Below, one piece after another: positions 14,598 through 24,794 of a stretch of DNA of 64,000 nucleotides. The position numbers and the translations under genes were made by a program. How positions within the stretch are numbered: position 1 is the stretch's first letter; each line of letters begins with the position of its first letter. The DNA comes from Lutibacter profundi (GTDB lineage Bacteria; Bacteroidota; Bacteroidia; Flavobacteriales; Flavobacteriaceae). The stretch spans positions 1,084,001 through 1,148,000 of the forward strand of contig NZ_CP013355.1 in assembly GCF_001543325.1 (NCBI RefSeq), read 5' to 3'. Under the pieces are notes generated by a model. The model was not told the DNA's origin, did no database searches, and was given only the letters and a program-made list of their open reading frames with translations.

Positions 14598-14939
14598 ATG
14601 AAGATAGAAAACACAAAAGCTCAAATGCGAAAAGGAGTTTTAGAGTATTGCATACTTTCAATATTACAACATGGAGATGCTTACACTTCTGAAATTATAT
14701 CGCATTTAAAAGATGCAAAATTACTGGTTGTTGAAGGAACTGTTTACCCTTTACTAACTAGATTAAAAAATGCAGGTTTACTCAGTTACCGCTGGGAAGA
14801 ATCAACATCAGGACCACCAAGAAAATACTATGCATTAACAGAAACAGGTAACTTTTTTTTAAAAGAATTAAACACTACTTGGAGTGAACTTGTAAAAGCC
14901 GTAAACTTAGTAACTACCAATAAACCAACTACAAAATGA
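14598..14939 (+). CDS. PadR-family transcriptional regulator
   Basis: 113 residues with the winged-helix core of PadR proteins: KGVLEYCILSILQHGDAYTS, LLVVEGTVYPLLTRLKNAGL and the wing SGPPRKYYALTETG. PadR repressors respond to small molecules or phenolics and usually control their own operon. Its last codons overlap the next start by four bases (ATGA), so it is made together with the PspC protein. This is the common arrangement of small PadR genes with envelope-stress proteins in Bacteroidota. Confidence 0.9.
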   Translation: MKIENTKAQMRKGVLEYCILSILQHGDAYTSEIISHLKDAKLLVVEGTVYPLLTRLKNAGLLSYRWEESTSGPPRKYYALTETGNFFLKELNTTWSELVKAVNLVTTNKPTTK

Positions 14940-16669
14940 ACAAGACAATAAATATAAACTTAGGAGGTATCTTTTTTCATATTGATGAATTAGCTTATCA
15001 AAAATTAAAACTTTATTTAGATGCCATTAGACGATCTTTAAGTGATGACCCTCAAGGAAGAGATGAAATTTTAAATGATATTGAACATAGAATTGGTGAA
15101 TTGCTTTCAGAAAGAATTAAGAATGAACGTCAAGTTGTTAATGAAAATGACATAGATGAAATCACTAAAATAATGGGGAAACCTGAAGACTATATGGTTG
15201 ATGAAGAAATTTTTGAAGAGGAACCAACATATCGTTCTAAAACTTCTTCAAAAAAATTATTTAGAGATGGTGATGATAAATTTTTGGGAGGTGTATGTTC
15301 TGGATTAGCACATTATTTTGGTATGGACGTAACCTGGATGCGCATTATTTGGCTTATTTTATTTTTTGGTTTTGGAGTTGGATTTTTAATATATCCATTA
15401 TTATGGATATTAATTCCGGTAGCTGAAACTACAGCTGAAAAATTACAAATGAAAGGAGAACCTGTAAATATTAGTAATATTGAACGTAAAATTAGAGAGG
15501 AGTTTCAAGATGTTACATCACGTGTTAAAGAGGGTGTTAGCAACGTAACCCATAAAGTTAATAGCGAAGAATTTAAAAATAAAGCAAAATCTGGTATGCA
15601 AGAAATGGTAGATACATTGGGGAAAATTATTCTTGCTATTTTAACTATTTTTGGTAAAATTATTGGTGCACTTTTAATTTTTATTGCTTCAGCAACTTTA
15701 ATTGGGTTAATATTTGGAGCTTTTTCTTGGGGTAGTGTAGAAATATTAGGCTTTGGAAAAGATTATGTAAACTACCCTCCATTTTTTTATAACTCTGTTG
15801 TTCCCTCTTGGATTTTAATCTTATTTACTTTTATTGCTATTGGAATTCCATTTATAATATTGTTTATGCTTGGATTAAAAATTATTTCAAACAACGTAAA
15901 ATCATTTAGCACAACCACAAAATTATCGTTATTAGGAGTTTGGATTATCTCTTTACTAGGCTTAGGCTTTGCAGGTATTAATTTTGCAACACAAACAGCA
16001 TATGATGGTGTTTTTATCCAAAAACAAGATTTAACAATAGCAACTGACACACTAGTTGTAAAAATGATTGGTGATGATAACCTTTCGAATAAAAGTGAGT
16101 TAAGAAGACGTTATGATTATGAAACGGTATATGATAATGACGTACAAAAACTTTATTCAACTAGAATAAATGTAGCTATTAAACCTACCGATAAAACAAT
16201 TGCCTATATTAAAATAAGAAAAGAGTCTGAAGGTAAAAATCGTTTAGCTGCAAACAATGACGCAGAAACAATTGAATACCAATTCAATTTAGAGGGTAAA
16301 AACCTATTACTGAATGGTTATTTCTTATCAGATTTCAAAAATAAGTTTAAAAGTCAATCTGTTGATGTTATTATTTACTTACCTATTAACTCAATAATTT
16401 ATTTAAATAATTCTACGAAAACTTATTTAGATGATGTAGATAATATTCAAGACATACTCAATAGAGATATGCCAAAACATTATTTTAAAATGACTGAGAA
16501 TGGATTAGAATGTTTAGACTGTAACCTGGCTATTTATGGAAATAATTTTAAAAATAAAAACAACCATTTTAAATTAGACATTGATAAAAATGGTTTAAAT
16601 ATAAAAGTAAAAGACGGTGATAAAAATGCAGAAATTAAAATTGATGAGAACGGAATTAAAATTGAATAA
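14936..16669 (+). CDS. PspC-domain membrane protein
   Basis: 577 residues. An N-terminal soluble segment (LYLDAIRRSLSDDPQGRDEI, then DIEHRIGELLSERI) resembles the membrane-adjacent helices linked to PadR partners. The PspC domain follows at about 104-160 (RDGDDKFLGGVCSGLAHYFG, then WILIPVAET). Then come further membrane helices (about 225-262, 290-315, 327-350) and a C-terminal beta-rich domain, probably outside the cytoplasm. PspC senses membrane stress in other bacteria. It overlaps the PadR gene by four bases. Confidence 0.88.
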   Translation: MNKTININLGGIFFHIDELAYQKLKLYLDAIRRSLSDDPQGRDEILNDIEHRIGELLSERIKNERQVVNENDIDEITKIMGKPEDYMVDEEIFEEEPTYRSKTSSKKLFRDGDDKFLGGVCSGLAHYFGMDVTWMRIIWLILFFGFGVGFLIYPLLWILIPVAETTAEKLQMKGEPVNISNIERKIREEFQDVTSRVKEGVSNVTHKVNSEEFKNKAKSGMQEMVDTLGKIILAILTIFGKIIGALLIFIASATLIGLIFGAFSWGSVEILGFGKDYVNYPPFFYNSVVPSWILILFTFIAIGIPFIILFMLGLKIISNNVKSFSTTTKLSLLGVWIISLLGLGFAGINFATQTAYDGVFIQKQDLTIATDTLVVKMIGDDNLSNKSELRRRYDYETVYDNDVQKLYSTRINVAIKPTDKTIAYIKIRKESEGKNRLAANNDAETIEYQFNLEGKNLLLNGYFLSDFKNKFKSQSVDVIIYLPINSIIYLNNSTKTYLDDVDNIQDILNRDMPKHYFKMTENGLECLDCNLAIYGNNFKNKNNHFKLDIDKNGLNIKVKDGDKNAEIKIDENGIKIE

Positions 16670-16766: not shown

Positions 16767-17489
16767 ATGAAAACTTTAACAAAAATAACAGCATTACTTG
16801 TAATTTTATTGACAACTTCTTCATGTTTTTTAGATGGAATAACAGGTATTCGAGGAAACGGAAAAGTAATTTCTGAAGAACGCACAATTAATTCTGATTT
16901 TGATAAGATTAAAGTACAGCAAGGAATTAATTTATACATAACACAAGGAAATTCAACAGGTTTAGAGGTTGAAGCAGATGAGAATATAATTGGCTTGTTG
17001 ATTACTGAAGTAAAAGACAATGAATTAAACATCTATTTTGAAAAAAATGTTTACAGAGCAAAAGCACGTGATGTTTATGTAACAGCTACTAATATTTCTA
17101 AAATAAAAACATCTAGTGGAGCTTCAGTAAAATCTGATGACATACTGCAAGTCAACTCATTAAATCTTAATGCCAGTAGTGGAAGTTCAATTAAAATCTA
17201 TGTAAATGCTGAAGAAATAACTAGTTCAGCCTCAAGTGGTGCAAACATAGATATTTTTGGAAAAACGACATCTTTTTCAGCAACAGCCAGCAGCGGTAGT
17301 TCAATTGATGCTGACGAATTAAAAACTGTTATCGCTTATGCAAAAGCAAGTAGTGGAGCAAATATAGATTTAAATGTTTCAAAGAAACTTACAGCAAAAG
17401 CAAGTAGTGGTGGTGATATTGATTATGAAGGCAACCCTACTGATGTTAACAAAGACACCTCTTCAGGAGGTCGTGTTTCAGGAAGCTAA
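16767..17489 (+). CDS. Head GIN domain (DUF2807) lipoprotein
   Basis: 240 residues. The signal ends at Cys20 in a lipobox-like TTSSC. The mature chain is a run of short beta repeats with recurring ASSGSSI, ASSGANID and TSSGASV motifs, the hallmark of the auto-transporting-adhesin-like GIN (DUF2807) fold, a right-handed parallel beta solenoid. A surface or periplasmic location is expected; the role is unknown. GIN proteins are repeatedly found downstream of PadR-PspC genes. It is 97 bases after the PspC gene and is followed by a terminator. Confidence 0.88.
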   Translation: MKTLTKITALLVILLTTSSCFLDGITGIRGNGKVISEERTINSDFDKIKVQQGINLYITQGNSTGLEVEADENIIGLLITEVKDNELNIYFEKNVYRAKARDVYVTATNISKIKTSSGASVKSDDILQVNSLNLNASSGSSIKIYVNAEEITSSASSGANIDIFGKTTSFSATASSGSSIDADELKTVIAYAKASSGANIDLNVSKKLTAKASSGGDIDYEGNPTDVNKDTSSGGRVSGS

Positions 17490-17550: not shown

Positions 17551-17590
17551 GTTTAAATTTGTAAAACTTAACCTCCATAATAAAAAAAAT

Positions 17591-17613
17591 GTTAATATTG
17601 ATAAAATATTAAC
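17591..17613. promoter_or_regulatory. 23-bp palindromic operator candidate
   Basis: GTTAATAT-N7-ATATTAAC is a perfect 8-bp inverted repeat. It lies 21 bases upstream of the TACATTTG box that serves the following gene, so a bound regulator would cover the -33 region. Confidence 0.45.
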
Positions 17614-17634
17614 AAAATTTAACTGCAAGTTGCA

Positions 17635-17676: not shown

Positions 17677-19470
17677 ATGCAAAAAAGAAACACTACACAT
17701 TCATTTCATATCCCTGTTATGGGAATTGCCTTTACAATAGATAGTCCTATTAAAATAGCTAAATATGGTATTTCATCTGTTATTTCAATTGTAGACGACT
17801 TTCTAGTAGAAAAAATGAATGAATATTACTCAAATAAATTTAAGATTCCATACAAAGCTATCTCAACAAAAGATGAAGACTATAGAGCCAAAAGAATTAC
17901 TTCATATTTAAATACTGTTGACACAATAGCAAAACGCACATTTGACAATCTAAAACAAAGTTTTGAAGACAAGAGCAGTGAGTTTGAAAAATATATTGAT
18001 TTGCTCCCAGATTTTTCTGACTTAAAACAAAGTTTTATCAAAAAGTATGAAAAGAACACTTTAAAAGAAGATGTTAATCAATGGATTGAAAACAATTTGA
18101 AACTTGGTAGTATTGATGTAAATATCATGACAAAGCTTGATAAAGTAAACTATCATAAAAAAGAACAATTACCTTCAGAATTTAACGATGCGCATGCTGC
18201 TTTAAGAGGTTTTGCAAATAGTACCTTGGAATCATCTGTTGTACTTTCTGCTGGAATGAATCCAAGATTATACAGTTATTTTGAAAAATTTAACGACTTT
18301 TTCCCAAACAAAAACAATATTCTAAAAAAGAAAATTATTTTAAAGGTTAGTGATTATAGATCTGCACTAATTCAAGGTAAATTTTTAGCAAAAAAAGGAT
18401 TATGGGTGTCGGAATACAGAATAGAATCTGGTTTAAATTGTGGTGGTCATGCATTTGCTTCTGATGGCTATTTAATGGGACCTATTTTAGAAGAGTTTAA
18501 AAACCATAAAGATGATTTAATAAATGAAGTTCATACTATTCTGGTTTCAGCTTTAGAAAACAAAGAAAAACATGTTCCTAATACTCCTTTAGATTTAAAA
18601 ATTACCGCTCAAGGTGGTGTTGGCACATCGGAAGAACATGAATTTTTATTAGATAATTACAATATTGATTCTGTAGGTTGGGGAACTCCATTTTTATTGG
18701 TTCCTGAAGTAACTACTGTTGATTCTGAAACTATTAAAATATTAGAAAAAGCTACGGAGAAAGACTTGTACCTGAGTGATGTATCTCCTTTGGGTGTTCC
18801 TTTTAACAGCTTAAAAGGAAGTACAAACGAAATTATTAAACACCATAAAATTAAAAACAACAACCCTGGTAGCTCTTGCCCTAAAAAGTTTTTAGTTTCA
18901 AATACAACTTATACAAAACAGGCAATTTGTACTGCTTCAAAAAAATATCAAACAATAAAATTGAAGGAATTAAATGAAGCTTCAGATTCTAGTGATTATA
19001 AAGAACAGTTCAATAAAATTACAGCAAAAACTTGTTTATGTGAAGGTTTATCAAATGCTGCTCTAATTAAAAATAATATTGAACACAAAGGTGAAAAACA
19101 AGGTGTAGCAGTTTGCCCAGGCCCAAATATGGCTTATTTCTCTAAAGAACTCTCTTTAAAAGAAATGGTAAACCATATTTATGGGAAAGCGAACGTTATT
19201 GCTACTAATAATCGCCCACATATGTTTATTAAAGAGCTAACAATGTATATTGATTATTTTTCAAATAAAGTTGATGAGGTTAAAGACTCTGTTTCTAGAA
19301 AGCAAGAGAAATATTTAACTACTTTTCAAAATAATTTAAACGACGGTATTGAGTACTATCAAGATTTATTTTCCACATTTGAATCTAATAAAGATACTTT
19401 ATTACATGAATTAGAGACTTTGAAAAAAGAATTATTTAATATTAAAATACCCATTTTAGTTAAAGTTTAA
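17677..19470 (+). CDS. Conserved protein of unknown function, Cys-rich, possibly an FMN-type TIM barrel
   Basis: 597 residues with no signal peptide or membrane segment. The N-terminus (FHIPVMGIAFTIDSPIKIAK, then YGISSVISIVDD) and the block ITAQGGVGT (about 309-317) followed by VGWGTPFLLVPE resemble the first strand and phosphate-binding strands of FMN-dependent TIM-barrel oxidoreductases such as nitronate monooxygenase or glutamate synthase. Six Cys residues stand in Gly/Pro-rich turns: NCGG (255), SSCPK (401), ICTAS (418), CLCEG (453, 455) and VCPGP (480). These could bind a metal or iron-sulfur cluster. A long helical tail ends the chain. The gene is monocistronic, with a palindrome upstream and a terminator downstream. 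I do not recognise a named function. Confidence 0.6.
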   Translation: MQKRNTTHSFHIPVMGIAFTIDSPIKIAKYGISSVISIVDDFLVEKMNEYYSNKFKIPYKAISTKDEDYRAKRITSYLNTVDTIAKRTFDNLKQSFEDKSSEFEKYIDLLPDFSDLKQSFIKKYEKNTLKEDVNQWIENNLKLGSIDVNIMTKLDKVNYHKKEQLPSEFNDAHAALRGFANSTLESSVVLSAGMNPRLYSYFEKFNDFFPNKNNILKKKIILKVSDYRSALIQGKFLAKKGLWVSEYRIESGLNCGGHAFASDGYLMGPILEEFKNHKDDLINEVHTILVSALENKEKHVPNTPLDLKITAQGGVGTSEEHEFLLDNYNIDSVGWGTPFLLVPEVTTVDSETIKILEKATEKDLYLSDVSPLGVPFNSLKGSTNEIIKHHKIKNNNPGSSCPKKFLVSNTTYTKQAICTASKKYQTIKLKELNEASDSSDYKEQFNKITAKTCLCEGLSNAALIKNNIEHKGEKQGVAVCPGPNMAYFSKELSLKEMVNHIYGKANVIATNNRPHMFIKELTMYIDYFSNKVDEVKDSVSRKQEKYLTTFQNNLNDGIEYYQDLFSTFESNKDTLLHELETLKKELFNIKIPILVKV

Positions 19471-19507
19471 ACAAAAAAGGTCTTTCAAATGAAAGGCCTT
19501 TTTTGTT
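19471..19507. terminator. Bidirectional terminator
   Basis: Stem AAAAAAGG(T)CTTTC/GAAAGGCCTTTTTT with a short loop and A/T runs on both sides. It lies between the convergent 597-residue protein gene and the Rrf2 gene and can serve both. Confidence 0.75.
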
Positions 19508-19519
19508 TAATACAATTTG

Positions 19520-19936
19520 TTATTCTCCACAATGAAAGTTGGCAAGTGTTTTATTTTCAAGTATTTTTAAAGTACTATCTCTAACTTCTGCCATTAAAAT
19601 ACTTAAACTACAAAGTTCTTCATTAACACAATCATCACATTTTTCATAATAATTTAAACTAACGCAAGGCAACATAGCTATTGGACCTTCAAGCACCCTC
19701 ATAATGGTCGCTATTTTTATTTCTTTTGGATCTTTTAATAAGTAATAACCTCCTCCTTTTCCTTTTTTAGAGGACAGAATCCCACTCTTTTTTAAAGTTA
19801 ATAAAATACTCTCCAAGTATTTTTGAGATATGTTTTCAGCCTTTGAAATATCAGAAATTAATACAGGAACATTTTTTTCCTGCTTTGTAAGGTAGCTTAG
19901 TGCTTTAAGTCCGTATTTTGTTTTTTTAGAAAGCAT
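19520..19936 (-). CDS. Rrf2-family transcriptional regulator
   Basis: 138 residues. The winged-helix domain is clear: KTKYGLKALSYLTKQ, ISDISKAENISQKYLESIL, LSSKKGKGGGYYL. After it come Cys91, Cys100, Cys103 and Cys109, similar in spacing to the three Cys ligands of IscR-type [Fe-S] sensors, plus Cys136 near the end. It may therefore sense iron-sulfur status, redox state or NO. It lies 30 bases downstream of the ctlX gene on the same strand; whether it controls that operon is not shown. Confidence 0.85.
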   Translation of the reverse strand: MLSKKTKYGLKALSYLTKQEKNVPVLISDISKAENISQKYLESILLTLKKSGILSSKKGKGGGYYLLKDPKEIKIATIMRVLEGPIAMLPCVSLNYYEKCDDCVNEELCSLSILMAEVRDSTLKILENKTLANFHCGE

Positions 19937-19966: not shown

Positions 19967-20902
19967 TCATGTTTTTGGTAAAAATACTTCAGCCATCATA
20001 CATCTGGCACTTCCTCCTCCACACGCTTCAATAGTATCAAGAGAGCTTTGTATTATTTCTCCATGTTTTTTAAGTCTATTCATTTGTTGTTTTGTTAAAC
20101 TTTTGTAGGCAGAACTTGACATAACCATATAACGTTGATTATTGCGTCCTATAACTTGCAACATGTTACCCGTAAAATAATGTACTTGATCTTCTGTAAT
20201 TGTTATAATTTCTTTACCATCATCTTTCAAATGTTTAAGCAAGTTTTTACGTTCTTTTTTATCATTAATGCTATCAGCACAAATTACTGAAAAATTTTCA
20301 CCTAAACACATCATAACATTTGTATGGTAAATGGGCACTCTTACATTTTCAATTGTTTGATAAGATATAAAAGGCACAGGTGTATATTCAAAATCTTCAC
20401 AAAATTCTATTAATAAATCTTCAGAAGCACGGGGTGATAATGCACAATAGGCTTTTCTGTTAACGCGGTCTAGCAATAAACTACCCGTACCTTCTAGAAA
20501 TAGTTTTTCGTCTTCAGCTGAAGTGTAATCAACAATATTTTCAATGTTAAAACCTTTCTGCTCTAAAATATCTAAAATATCTTCTCTTCTTTCTAAACGC
20601 CTGTTTTCTGCAAACATTGGATATAAGCCAATGTCACCATTTTCATGAAAAGAAATCCAATTATTAGGAAAAATTGAATCTGGTGTATCAGTTTCTTTTA
20701 TATCTTCAATTAAGATTACTTGTACTCCAATTTCTCTTAATTTTTCTACAAAGTTATCAAATTCCTGTAATGCTTTAAGTTGTATGGTTTCAGGTGTTAA
20801 ATTATCCAATACTTTTTGATAGTAATTATTAACTGAGGTTTGTTCATTCATTCTAAACAAAATAGGGCGAATCATCAAAACAGTATTTGTAATTTGCTGC
20901 AT
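19967..20902 (-). CDS. ctlX: Citrulline hydrolase CtlX (amidinotransferase-fold)
   Basis: 311 residues of the guanidino-group-modifying superfamily. The substrate-carboxylate and Asp/His blocks are DSIFPNNWISFH and the NVMMCLG region. The nucleophile is Cys294 in EACGGGSARCMMAEVF, the ending characteristic of CtlX, which converts citrulline to ornithine, ammonia and CO2. The arginase gene is 12 bases upstream on the same strand, so the two routes to ornithine are cotranscribed. The start gives MQQITNTVLMIRP, normal for the family. Arginine deiminase specificity is less likely because the N-terminus lacks that family's extension. Confidence 0.85.
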   Translation of the reverse strand: MQQITNTVLMIRPILFRMNEQTSVNNYYQKVLDNLTPETIQLKALQEFDNFVEKLREIGVQVILIEDIKETDTPDSIFPNNWISFHENGDIGLYPMFAENRRLERREDILDILEQKGFNIENIVDYTSAEDEKLFLEGTGSLLLDRVNRKAYCALSPRASEDLLIEFCEDFEYTPVPFISYQTIENVRVPIYHTNVMMCLGENFSVICADSINDKKERKNLLKHLKDDGKEIITITEDQVHYFTGNMLQVIGRNNQRYMVMSSSAYKSLTKQQMNRLKKHGEIIQSSLDTIEACGGGSARCMMAEVFLPKT

Positions 20903-20914
20903 AACAAATGTTAA

Positions 20915-21871
20915 TTAAAGCGTTTTTTTAATGGCTTCCGTTGTTTCTTTTAGAACTTTAAAAGCAGTTTCAGCCATTTTATTTCCTTTATTATCTAATG
21001 TCGGATTTATTTCTACAACTTCAAAACATGAAACTTTTTTGGTTTTAACAAAGGCTTTAATAATGTCTATAATTTCAAATTCATCAAATCCCTTTGATAC
21101 TGGTGTACCTGTTCCTTTTGAAATTAAATCACTATCCATACTATCAACATCAAATGAAATATAAATATGGTCACAGTTACTTAATTTGTTAATAGCTTCA
21201 TTTAAACAATTATCAAATCCTCTATATCGCATCTCAGAAACTGTATAATTTTTAATATTATGCTTTTTAATAATCGCTTCTTCTTCTTCTTCAATATCGC
21301 GTACTCCAAAATAAATAATATCGCTATGTTTTACCTTAGAACCGTTAACACCAATGTTTTTCATTTGATTCCAATAATTTTTGGTTTGCTCAACAACATC
21401 ATTTATTTTGTAATCTAAATTATCATCATTCAAAGCTGCAGCTAATGGCATTCCGTGGATATTACCTGTGGGAGATGTATATGGAGAATGAATATCTGCG
21501 TGAGCATCTATCCAAATTACTCCCAACGTTTTTTCTGGAAATGCAATTTTAATTCCACTAATGGTTCCTAAAGCTGAGGAGTGATCTCCAGAGAGAATAA
21601 TTGGGAAATTATTACTGTTTAAGTTTTTGGCAACACTTGTACTTAAACGTGTACAAACTTGTAAAACACTTCCAATTCTTTTAGCGAATGAATTATTTTC
21701 TTTATTATAAATTGTTTCATTTTCTGTTTCAATATCTTCAAACGGATAACAATTAAAATAATTATCATTCATATTTATAGCTGCAATTTCTATTGCATCA
21801 ACTCCCATATCTGAACCACGAGTTCCTGCTCCAATATCAGATCTATTTTTAATAAGTTTAATTGTTTTCAT
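20915..21871 (-). CDS. Arginase / arginase-family hydrolase
   Basis: 318 residues of the ureohydrolase fold. The manganese ligands are visible in order: GDHSSALG, WIDAHADIHSP and SFDVDSMDSDL, followed by the TGTPVSKGF loop and ending in the CFEVVEINPTLD motif. Arginase turns arginine into ornithine and urea, whereas agmatinases of the same family use agmatine. The pairing with ctlX, which also makes ornithine, favours arginase. GAGTRGSDMG near the start is the family's N-terminal substrate loop. No urease gene is in the window. Confidence 0.85.
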   Translation of the reverse strand: MKTIKLIKNRSDIGAGTRGSDMGVDAIEIAAINMNDNYFNCYPFEDIETENETIYNKENNSFAKRIGSVLQVCTRLSTSVAKNLNSNNFPIILSGDHSSALGTISGIKIAFPEKTLGVIWIDAHADIHSPYTSPTGNIHGMPLAAALNDDNLDYKINDVVEQTKNYWNQMKNIGVNGSKVKHSDIIYFGVRDIEEEEEAIIKKHNIKNYTVSEMRYRGFDNCLNEAINKLSNCDHIYISFDVDSMDSDLISKGTGTPVSKGFDEFEIIDIIKAFVKTKKVSCFEVVEINPTLDNKGNKMAETAFKVLKETTEAIKKTL

Positions 21872-21986: not shown

Positions 21987-23273
21987 TTAACGTTCTTCAA
22001 ATGATTTAAAAGGCCGTAAAGTTTCTCCAATATATAATTGACGTGGACGTCCAATTGGTTCTTTATTTTCACGCATTTCTTTCCATTGAGCAATCCAACC
22101 TGGTAAACGACCAATAGCAAACATTACAGTAAACATTTCAACAGGTACTCCTAAAGCTCTATATATAATTCCTGAATAAAAATCTACATTTGGATATAAT
22201 TTACGTTCAGCAAAATATGGATCTTTCAATGCTACTTCTTCTAGATGTTTTGCAATTTCTAGAATAGGATCATTTAAGTTTAAGTCTTGAAATAACTCAT
22301 CGGCTGCGTTTTTAATAATACGAGCTCTTGGATCAAAGTTTTTATAAACTCTATGTCCAAATCCCATTAAGCGAAATGGGTCATTTTTATCTTTAGCCTT
22401 ATTTATAAATTTCTCAACATCACCACCGTCTTTTCTAATTTGCTCTAGCATTTCTAAAACTGCCTGATTTGCACCTCCGTGCAATCTCCCCCACAATGCA
22501 GATACTCCTGCTGAGATTGAAGCAAACAAACCTGCTTCAGAAGATCCAACAATACGCACTGTTGAAGTTGAGCAGTTTTGCTCGTGATCTTCATGTAAAA
22601 TTAATAACTCATCCAATGCTTTAACTGCAATTGGATTAATTTTATATTCTTCAGTAGGTATTCTAAATAATAATTGCATTAAATTAGATATATAATCTAA
22701 AGAGTTGTCTGCATAATTTAATGGCAACCCATCATTTCTCCTATGTGCCCAAGATGCAAGAACAGGAAACTTTGCTAGTATTTTAACAATGGCCTGATAC
22801 ATTTCTTCTTTAGAATTTATATCAACAGTATTTGAGTTAAAAGCAGTCAATGCACTTGTTAAAGAGGATAGCATTCCCATTGGGTGAGCAACTTTAGGGA
22901 AACCATCTATAATATTTTTCATCTCTTCATTAATAAGTGAATGTGATTTTATATCATCTTCAAATTTTTTGAATTCAGATTTCGTAGGTAATTCTCCAAA
23001 AATTATTAAAAAGGCTACTTCTAAAAAACTTGCCTTTTTTGTTAATTCTTCTATTGCATATCCTCTATGGCGCAAAATTCCTTTCTCTCCATCTAAAAAT
23101 GTAATTTTACTAGTACATGAACCTGTATTTTTAAATCCTGGATCAATTGTAATTACTCCTCCTGTAACTGTTCTTAATGATTTAATATCTATGGAAACCT
23201 CATTTTCAGACCCTCTAATAATAGGAAATTCATAAATTTTACCATCAAGTTCTAATTTTGCTATATCTGACAT
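21987..23273 (-). CDS. gltA: Citrate synthase (bacterial type II)
   Basis: 428 residues, the length of E. coli-type hexameric citrate synthase, which condenses oxaloacetate and acetyl-CoA at the entry to the TCA cycle. An N-terminal strand-rich domain (LELDGKIYEFPIIRGSENE) typical of type II enzymes is present. Active-site blocks HEDHEQNCSTSTVRIVGSS, ALWGRLHGGANQ and MGFGHRVYKNFDPRA are intact. The gene has its own exact Bacteroidota promoter (23316-23346) and terminator, so it is monocistronic. It lies next to a second citrate synthase of a different type. Confidence 0.92.
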   Translation of the reverse strand: MSDIAKLELDGKIYEFPIIRGSENEVSIDIKSLRTVTGGVITIDPGFKNTGSCTSKITFLDGEKGILRHRGYAIEELTKKASFLEVAFLIIFGELPTKSEFKKFEDDIKSHSLINEEMKNIIDGFPKVAHPMGMLSSLTSALTAFNSNTVDINSKEEMYQAIVKILAKFPVLASWAHRRNDGLPLNYADNSLDYISNLMQLLFRIPTEEYKINPIAVKALDELLILHEDHEQNCSTSTVRIVGSSEAGLFASISAGVSALWGRLHGGANQAVLEMLEQIRKDGGDVEKFINKAKDKNDPFRLMGFGHRVYKNFDPRARIIKNAADELFQDLNLNDPILEIAKHLEEVALKDPYFAERKLYPNVDFYSGIIYRALGVPVEMFTVMFAIGRLPGWIAQWKEMRENKEPIGRPRQLYIGETLRPFKSFEER

Positions 23274-23315
23274 ATTTTTATTTTATACTGTTTTGAATTT
23301 AATGTTTAAACTTAC

Positions 23316-23346
23316 CAAATTTACGAAATATAATTGTGTTCAAAAA
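23316..23346 (-). promoter_or_regulatory. Promoter of gltA
   Basis: On the minus strand TTTTTG, 17 bases, then TAAATTTG: an exact match to TTG-N17-23-TAnnTTTG, 42 bases before the start codon. Confidence 0.65.
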
Positions 23347-23370
23347 GTTTTTTTAAACAGTATTTACCCT

Positions 23371-23412
23371 AAAAAAACCTTGATGTTTATGGTTAAAACA
23401 TCAAGGTTTTTT
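23371..23412 (-). terminator. Rho-independent terminator after the eukaryotic-type citrate synthase gene
   Basis: Long stem AAAAACCTTGATGTTT/AAACATCAAGGTTTTT with A/T runs on both sides. It lies 22 bases after the stop codon of the upstream gene. Confidence 0.8.
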
Positions 23413-23434
23413 CTTGTTTATAAAACTATTATTT

Positions 23435-24763
23435 CTACTCTATTTCAGCCATCTCTTTTTTAATTCCAACCATTTCTTCAAGCATATCTGTTGTAACAGA
23501 TTTAGGTCTTTCAAGTGCATAACCTAACGCCCTATCCCAAATAATATTTGATAACACACCAAATGATCTTCCTATTGAAAATAATACGGTGTAAAAATCA
23601 TATTGAGTTACGCCATAATGCCATTGAACAACACCTGATTGAGCATCTACATTTGGCCATGGATTTTTTGCCTTTCCTTGTTCTCTCAAAATATCTGGTA
23701 CAACTTTATAAAGAGCATCAACATATTTAAATAAATCATCATCTGGTAAGTTTTTTAAACAAAACTCTCGTTGAACAGTATATCTTGGATCGGTTTTACG
23801 TAAAACCGCATGTCCGTAACCAGGAATGACTTGACCTTTATTTAAAGTATCCCAAACATATTTTTTCATTTCTTCTTCTGAAGGTATTTTACCTCCCATT
23901 TGATCTTTAAGCCCTTGTAACCAACGTAATACCTCTTGGTTTGCTAAACCGTGTAATGGGCCTGCTAAACCATTAATCATAGCTGAAGTTGCATAATAAA
24001 CATCTGACAATGAACTAGCCACTAAATGACCTGTATGTGCACTAACATTTCCGCTTTCGTGATCGGCATGTATTATAAAGTACATACGTGATACATCATC
24101 ATACGGTTTATCTTTACCCATCATATAAGCAAAATTTCCACCTAAGTCTAAGTTAGGATCAGGGTATCTATGCCCATTTTCAGGATGATATAATTTGTTA
24201 TAGATATAGGCTCCAATTAATGGCATTTTTGCAATTAGGTTTGTTGCATCTTCATAAGTAGAATCCCAATAATCCATTTTACTCATCCCTTTTCTATATT
24301 TAACATTAAAATGAGATTCTCTTTCTAAACTCATTACTGCTGCTGATAATATTGCCATTGGATGACTATTGCTAGGGAAGGCATCTATAACATCCCAAAC
24401 ATAATGAGGTACTATACGTCGATTTTTAAAATCAACTTTTAATTCTTCAACTTCTATTTCTGTAGGAATTTCCCCCGTTAATAGTAAAAAATATAAACCC
24501 TCTACATATGGCATATCTGCGCCTTCTGGTTTTGGTAATTTTTCCAAAACTTCTGGTAATGTAAAACCTCTATAACGTATCCCTTCAAATGGGTCTAAAT
24601 AAGAAATATCTGTAACCAAACTTTTAATACCTCTCATACCTCCAATTGCTTGAGATACTGTCACTTGATCAATAACCTTATCTCCATATTCTTTCACTAA
24701 CTTGGTAGTTCGTAATCGGTGTTCTTGAATTTTTTCATACAACTTATCTTTCAATGTACTCAT
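23435..24763 (-). CDS. Citrate (Si)-synthase, eukaryotic-type
   Basis: 442 residues from the chosen Met (STLKDKLYEKIQEHRL). A start ten codons earlier is rejected because the promoter -7 box at 24795-24802 would place transcription inside that extension. Active-site blocks are present: HADHESGNVSAHTGHL, GLAGPLHGLANQEVLRWL and PGYGHAVLRKTDPRYTVQ. These match the dimeric mitochondrial-type enzyme rather than type II. It catalyses the same step as the neighbouring gltA product. Two types side by side suggest different regulation or conditions. It has its own promoter and terminator. Confidence 0.88.
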   Translation of the reverse strand: MSTLKDKLYEKIQEHRLRTTKLVKEYGDKVIDQVTVSQAIGGMRGIKSLVTDISYLDPFEGIRYRGFTLPEVLEKLPKPEGADMPYVEGLYFLLLTGEIPTEIEVEELKVDFKNRRIVPHYVWDVIDAFPSNSHPMAILSAAVMSLERESHFNVKYRKGMSKMDYWDSTYEDATNLIAKMPLIGAYIYNKLYHPENGHRYPDPNLDLGGNFAYMMGKDKPYDDVSRMYFIIHADHESGNVSAHTGHLVASSLSDVYYATSAMINGLAGPLHGLANQEVLRWLQGLKDQMGGKIPSEEEMKKYVWDTLNKGQVIPGYGHAVLRKTDPRYTVQREFCLKNLPDDDLFKYVDALYKVVPDILREQGKAKNPWPNVDAQSGVVQWHYGVTQYDFYTVLFSIGRSFGVLSNIIWDRALGYALERPKSVTTDMLEEMVGIKKEMAEIE

Positions 24764-24794
24764 GATATTTAATCTTTTAATAATTAATTTCACT

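Follow-up and report, generated by a model that had tools for sequence, protein, structure and literature searches.

The window analysed here, a stretch of 64,000 nucleotides from the Lutibacter profundi genome, carries a gene for a 597-residue protein that is built, and probably works, like the acyl-ACP dehydrogenase/isomerase FabX of Helicobacter pylori. The fold of the protein, its conserved residues, including a catalytic-histidine motif and cysteines, its association with low-oxygen genes and a Crp/Fnr-type site were established here by computation. Tentatively, we view the product as an FMN/Fe-S enzyme belonging to the gene set for low-oxygen N-oxide respiration, most likely an O2-independent acyl-thioester dehydrogenase/isomerase. 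The fold and the genomic association of the protein are well supported. FMN and an Fe-S cluster are its likely cofactors, an occupancy that we infer, as we do the substrate and the electron acceptor.

The open reading frame starts with ATG and encodes exactly six cysteines, at residues 255, 401, 418, 453, 455 and 480; a GWGTPFL block (residues 334-340) follows the GGVGT loop. The gene is monocistronic in the window, its upstream neighbour ending at position 17489 and its downstream neighbour being a convergent Rrf2 gene. A Cys-rich reading frame with these two blocks, together with a palindrome and a terminator of its own, had been described in an earlier note on this DNA, and all were recovered (Table 1). 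Homologues were present in 28 of 40 related genomes at 56-84% identity and, since they were mostly full-length and uninterrupted, the gene is not a chance open reading frame and is under selection. The window neighbours of the gene (PspC, Rrf2 and arginine genes) are kept only within Lutibacter and mostly not beyond, so that the operon inference drawn from them was dropped. In the window's own genome, the gene lies near neither nos, nir nor RIC genes.

Table 1. Features of the FabX-like gene and its flanks (window coordinates).
Feature	Position	Strand	Remarks
FabX/NMO-superfamily flavoprotein-like gene	17677..19470	+	predicted FMN barrel, Cys-rich C-terminal subdomain, helical tail
Palindrome TGTTAATATTGATAAAATATTAACA	17590..17614	.	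5' of FabX-like gene
TTGATAAAATATTAA inside palindrome	17598-17612		degenerate match to Crp/Fnr-type TGAYN4RTCA, similarly placed in relatives
NCGGH motif, residues 254-258	18436..18450	+	His258 aligned to FabX His182; Cys255 invariant
GGVGT, residues 313-317	18613..18627	+	matches FMN-phosphate loop GGI.T of NMO/FabX proteins
SPLGVP, residues 370-375	18784..18801	+	SPxGxP at barrel end, common to FabX and CLC-type relatives
Predicted cluster subdomain C401-X16-C418-X34-C453-X-C455-X24-C480	18877..19116	+	all Cys invariant
C-terminal three-helix tail, residues 516-587	19222..19437	+	AlphaFold2 model
Hairpin terminator	19471..19508 (about)	.	between FabX-like gene and convergent Rrf2 gene; sequence read directly
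Rrf2-family regulator, convergent neighbour	19520..19936	-	Rrf2 genes recur near FabX-like family in other genomes

An AlphaFold2 model computed with the homologue alignment as input (mean pLDDT 88.8, pTM 0.90) showed a beta/alpha barrel with a helical insertion after strand 2, a Cys-rich stretch and a three-helix tail; confidence was lower around residues 401-430, within the Cys-rich stretch. When solved structures were searched with Foldseek, ranks 1 to 5 were all occupied by H. pylori FabX (E 2.6e-11 to 7.7e-10, probability 1.00, TM by target 0.62-0.67), with DfnA-ER, PfaD and PA1024 ranked below. The protein is thus predicted to have the barrel fold of NMO-type FMN enzymes. The earlier note had read an FMN-like TIM barrel and a long helical tail from the sequence and had proposed structure prediction and a fold search as a check; both elements were found. 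Its view that the combination fits no nameable enzyme did not hold, however. FabX (HP0773; PDB 7E1Q, 9LT5, 9LT8) combines just these two features, a cluster and an FMN barrel: it is an FMN and [4Fe-4S] acyl-ACP dehydrogenase/isomerase, with His182 as catalytic residue, that dehydrogenates decanoyl-ACP with FMN and keeps one electron on its cluster. The barrel and helical insertion are also shared with PfaD and the trans-AT enoyl reductases DfnA-ER and MlnA-ER (Foldseek E 4e-9 to 3e-7), but polyketide or PUFA synthase genes are not recurrent near the FabX-like gene. We know of no Cys cluster subdomain in PfaD.

Sequence searches of Pfam, NCBIfam and PDB, with the single sequence and with the family, returned chance matches only. 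The window protein did not match Pfam PF03060 (NMO) even at E 10, and NMO is absent from the 25 Pfam families listed for the 51 homologues; an NCBIfam PRK00420 match at residues 254-307 was discarded (18 bits against a cut-off of 162). Among NMO proteins collected from Bacteroidota, we found a group of about 420 residues with a CLC motif (CLC-type, L108-L114), whose members match Pfam NMO, and FabX at 100 bits. Profile comparison with the CLC-type proteins (L108-L114, L147, L148) was collinear over residues 110-464, where SAGMN, VSDYRSA, GGH, GGVGT and SPLGVP are aligned within the shared patterns SAG(M/L)N, VSDYRSA/SSxRA, GGH, GGxxT and SPxGxP. In the CLC-type-only comparison, C401, C418, C453 and C455 fell on the four cysteines C319, C332, C358 and C360, respectively. 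Against CLC-type and FabX-type rows together, the comparison reached a probability of 86%, E 5e-6 and z = 10 relative to 60 column shuffles; this strong score required the mixed alignment, in which FabX-type rows were added to the CLC-type ones, and the FabX-only and FabK/NMO-only comparisons were weak alone (z 3.5 and 4.6). The ordered motifs GGH, GGI.T and GTrF of the NMO superfamily are present in the 597-residue protein together with the fold, the invariant His258 of GGH being aligned with the catalytic histidine of FabX (numbering read from the alignment). The CLC-type proteins differ from the window protein in matching Pfam NMO, in ending in a CWTC pair instead of the single C480 (C..C...CLC...CWTC) and in being about 180 residues shorter; they occur almost only in families f29 and f31. 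This group, present in 61 of 292 genomes and never alongside the FabX-like family in the sample, is itself an uncharacterised candidate Fe-S flavoprotein, with no specific NCBIfam model and no name beyond Pfam NMO.

Like FabX, the window protein has an FMN-type barrel, the catalytic-His position in GGH, SPxGxP after the barrel and a Cys-containing C-terminal subdomain where FabX has its [4Fe-4S] domain. The two are, however, only 12-14% identical over the structural alignment. The window protein is longer (597 vs 363 residues), adding the helical insertion after strand 2 and the three-helix C-terminal tail, and its family has an additional cysteine beside the catalytic histidine. Moreover, the spacing of the FabX cluster ligands C300, C304, C308 and C320 (CX3CX3CX11C) is not found in the family, which carries CX16CX34-37CXCX23-25C. 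Because of this difference, the family was not filed as FabX; its cysteine spacing is nearer to that of the CLC-type proteins, and Bacteroidota FabX-type proteins show the pattern CPFHCIKTC...C. FabX has a basic ACP-docking helix with Arg164 placed 18 residues before the catalytic histidine. In the family, Lys239 and Lys240 are >90% conserved; on the assumption of a gap-free stretch, Lys240 would precede His258 by 18 residues.

Conservation of the six cysteines, which the earlier note had proposed to check, was complete in an alignment of 51 homologues (42-83% identity). Also invariant were N254, G256, G257, H258, G313, G314, G316, G334, W335, F339, S370, P371 and G373, and the C-terminal cysteines followed the spacing C-X16(17)-C-X34..37-C-X-C-X23..25-C. 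The suggestion that all six could bind a cluster may be kept for the C-terminal cysteines, given their FabX-like position, but Cys255 is an unlikely ligand since it lies within the active-site NCGGH, beside the catalytic-His equivalent. Fe-S binding gains support from FabX, the closest fold, whose [4Fe-4S] cluster occupies the corresponding C-terminal site.

The family was found in 112 of 296 Bacteroidota genomes and 67 of 140 genera, in a phylum sample of one genome per species in which phylogeny is only partly controlled. Named loci are mostly from Lutibacter, with others from Winogradskyella, Crocinitomix and Flavobacterium. One homologue (L033) lies on a MAG contig labelled Omnitrophota, a label taken as given and possibly due to misbinning; outside Bacteroidota, the search reached close relatives only. 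No relative was found in plasmid and phage collections. One genome (G133) carries, in addition to an intact copy at 15225, a second, broken copy in pieces with stops (contig 1, 4371173-4372865).

Presence of the FabX-like gene goes with that of low-oxygen genes. The iron-centre repair protein RIC (PF04405) was detected in 76 of 112 carriers as compared to 35 of 180 non-carriers (OR 8.7, p 1e-16), and the association persisted without the large family f31 (OR 5.1, p 5e-9). With f31 removed, the O2-independent coproporphyrinogen oxidase HemN (TIGR00538) was found in 93 of the 112 carriers, as compared to 49 of the 121 other genomes (OR 7.2, p 2e-11), and nosZ (TIGR04246) in the full sample in 56 of 112 carriers and 42 of 180 others. 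In a joint model, the RIC association was independent of hemN and hemN was an equally strong independent correlate; that of nosZ was not significant once both were included. After stratification by family (101 genomes), RIC (OR 17.6, p 0.001), hemN (p 0.009) and nosZ (OR 5.0, p 0.018) were associated with the gene, and no association with an O2-dependent fatty-acid desaturase was seen (p 0.87). The idea that the protein stands in for a missing desaturase therefore failed, although a role confined to anoxia is compatible with this result. Neither RIC nor nosZ was present in 28 of the 112 carriers. All 50 carriers in a 128-genome subset have a haem-copper oxidase; they therefore seem to respire O2 and to have an anoxic alternative. 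The anaerobic ribonucleotide reductase NrdD was too rare in the sample to inform.

Physical linkage was also observed. Among the 56 genomes that have nosZ as well as the FabX-like gene, 16 show the two no more than 15 kb apart (families f1, f17, f35 and f37), as compared to about 0.45 of 56 expected under random placement, an estimate based on a 30 kb span and a genome of roughly 3.7 Mb. The FabX-like gene of L179 and L182 directly follows nosY on the same strand, in the order nosZ..nosL-nosD-nosF-nosY. The order in L176 is nosL-D-F-Y, Rrf2, RIC and the FabX-like gene, L149 has nos genes and hemN 5' of RIC and the FabX-like gene, and L169 has NorC/NorB, RIC and an anaerobic ribonucleotide reductase nearby. 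Within 8.5 kb of the gene, the 93 carriers surveyed showed RIC 13 times, Rrf2 13 times, nosZ 10 times and hemN 7 times, as compared to none at 20 control loci surrounding a desaturase. At some distant loci, the gene adjoins RIC (ScdA), a regulator of the Rrf2 family or a haem protein. Neighbour names come from sequence reading, those of RIC, Rrf2 and NosZ being backed by models; none of the recurrent neighbours is a fatty-acid gene. Overall, co-occurrence and linkage with nos, RIC and hemN are beyond chance, as expected of a member of a low-oxygen/N-oxide gene set. Separately, f1 genomes G106, G141, G145, G236 and G240 have NadA/NadB quinolinate-synthesis genes within 8.5 kb of the FabX-like gene; NadA carries an oxidant-sensitive Fe-S cluster.

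The motif TGAYN4RTCA, which we take to be the core of Crp/Fnr-type sites (FNR boxes), was found 5' of the gene in 13 of the 21 Lutibacter sequences and, elsewhere in Bacteroidota, in 28 of 93, as compared to shuffled means of 0.1 and 1.1, respectively, and to 3 of 262 control ORFs. Some 30 nt after it there is commonly a TTTG similar to the Bacteroidota -7 element. In the genome of the window, Crp/Fnr-type sites precede the nos operon by 81 bp and, by 95 bp, a nirS/nor operon that comprises RIC, NorQ/NorD-like genes and a gene for a nirS-like cytochrome d1 protein; with both operons present, the host looks like a denitrifier. The window copy keeps one half-site only, so that the site shared with the nos and nir/nor operons is seen in many relatives and by half in the window. 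The FabX-like gene would be under a Crp/Fnr-type activator, the regulator being deduced from its site.

We propose that the product works in the cytoplasm as a flavoenzyme of the nitronate monooxygenase/FabX superfamily, with FMN in the barrel, His258 as putative catalytic base and a [4Fe-4S]-type cluster probably on some of C401, C418, C453, C455 and C480. Bacteroidota would switch the gene on for low-oxygen N-oxide respiration via a Crp/Fnr-type activator. The enzyme would most likely dehydrogenate and/or isomerise an acyl-ACP or acyl-CoA, as FabX does, with FMN and the cluster relaying the electrons to an acceptor. It would thereby supply an O2-independent double bond when O2-dependent desaturases cannot work, in parallel to HemN, which replaces the O2-dependent step of haem synthesis. 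An acyl dehydrogenase/isomerase is our first choice, at modest confidence, because of the FabX-like build and the hemN-like distribution. A comparable case is Neisseria gonorrhoeae NGO1024 (Npd), a FabX homologue that is induced anaerobically and whose physiological role was shown by genetics. Both are FMN-barrel superfamily proteins tied to anaerobic, nitrite-respiring growth, but NGO1024 belongs to the FabX branch, with about 36% identity to a Bacteroidales FabX. Counting against our reading are the cysteine spacing, the lack of fatty-acid genes among recurrent neighbours, the carriers with neither RIC nor nosZ, the distance of the window gene from nos, nir and RIC, its half-conserved Crp/Fnr-type site, the loss of the nosZ signal in the joint model and the empty Pfam, NCBIfam and PDB sequence searches. 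In addition, H. pylori FabX itself has O2 as acceptor, which leaves the anoxic acceptor unexplained, and adjacency to RIC and Rrf2 suits a role in NO stress equally well.

The latter point leads to the main rival, a nitrosative-stress enzyme that would work with RIC, under an NsrR-like Rrf2 regulator, to detoxify NO or nitrite formed in denitrification or to repair the damage they cause. RIC is directly adjacent in about a dozen f37 genomes and its association is independent of hemN, Rrf2 genes are neighbours, and NorC/NorB and NnrS-like genes lie near in some loci. However, hemN correlates as strongly and independently but plays no part in NO detoxification, RIC is missing from 36 of the 112 carriers, the scores of the Rrf2 neighbours fall far short of the NsrR cut-off and the top structural matches are FMN barrels that process acyl groups. 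We regard this explanation as rather unlikely, though serious. An FMN-dependent NAD(P)H:quinone or other small-molecule reductase of anaerobic metabolism, using the cluster as an electron relay, would fit the PA1024 structures among the Foldseek matches and the catalytic diversity of the superfamily; it seems distinctly unlikely, as FabX matches rank clearly higher, PA1024-type proteins are without the Cys subdomain and no partner gene is conserved across all families.

The lower model confidence around residues 401-430 and the predicted status of the cluster leave some room for cysteines binding zinc or forming structural disulfides in a cluster-free flavoprotein or scaffold. Such a case is improbable in view of the invariant catalytic His, GGH and GGVGT, of the Cys subdomain lying where FabX holds its [4Fe-4S] cluster and of the four cysteines collinear with those of the CLC-type proteins. 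True NMO activity, as a nitronate or nitro-compound oxidase, is suggested by superfamily resemblance and an N-oxide-rich habitat, but we give it the least credence: the chemistry requires O2 whereas the gene set is one for low oxygen, PF03060 does not match the window protein and the FabK/NMO-only profile match is poor.

An enzyme of about 600 residues with invariant catalytic residues thus occurs in nearly half of the sampled Bacteroidota genera, yet is nameless in Pfam and NCBIfam; probably, a redox enzyme that serves growth without oxygen has been overlooked here. Its genomic context is new here, the tie to nos, RIC and hemN being a first handle on function; no open-licence paper was found that names a FabX-like gene in Bacteroidota nos clusters. 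Returning to the acyl-chain reading, we consider it possible, with considerable doubt, that an unnamed flavin/Fe-S family with its own cluster ligation provides an O2-independent route to unsaturated or dehydrogenated acyl chains in N-oxide respiration and marks anoxic growth in Bacteroidota. The organisms concerned are important as a sink for the greenhouse gas N2O. If double bonds are made without O2, this would explain how desaturase-reliant bacteria keep membrane fluidity when switching to N-oxide respiration, and the protein would hold an Fe-S cluster on the FabX/NMO barrel in a second way.

Three other loci of the window deserve mention. A PspC/toast-rack membrane-stress protein follows a PadR-like regulator at 14598-16669 (+), in a block kept in Lutibacter. 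Beside the Rrf2 regulator, at 19967-21871 (-), a dimethylarginine dimethylaminohydrolase-type protein (PF19420) adjoins an arginase-family protein (PF00491), the pair forming a small arginine-derivative module. Finally, 21987-24793 (-) holds two consecutive citrate-synthase genes (428 and 452 residues, both PF00285) of clearly different sequence.
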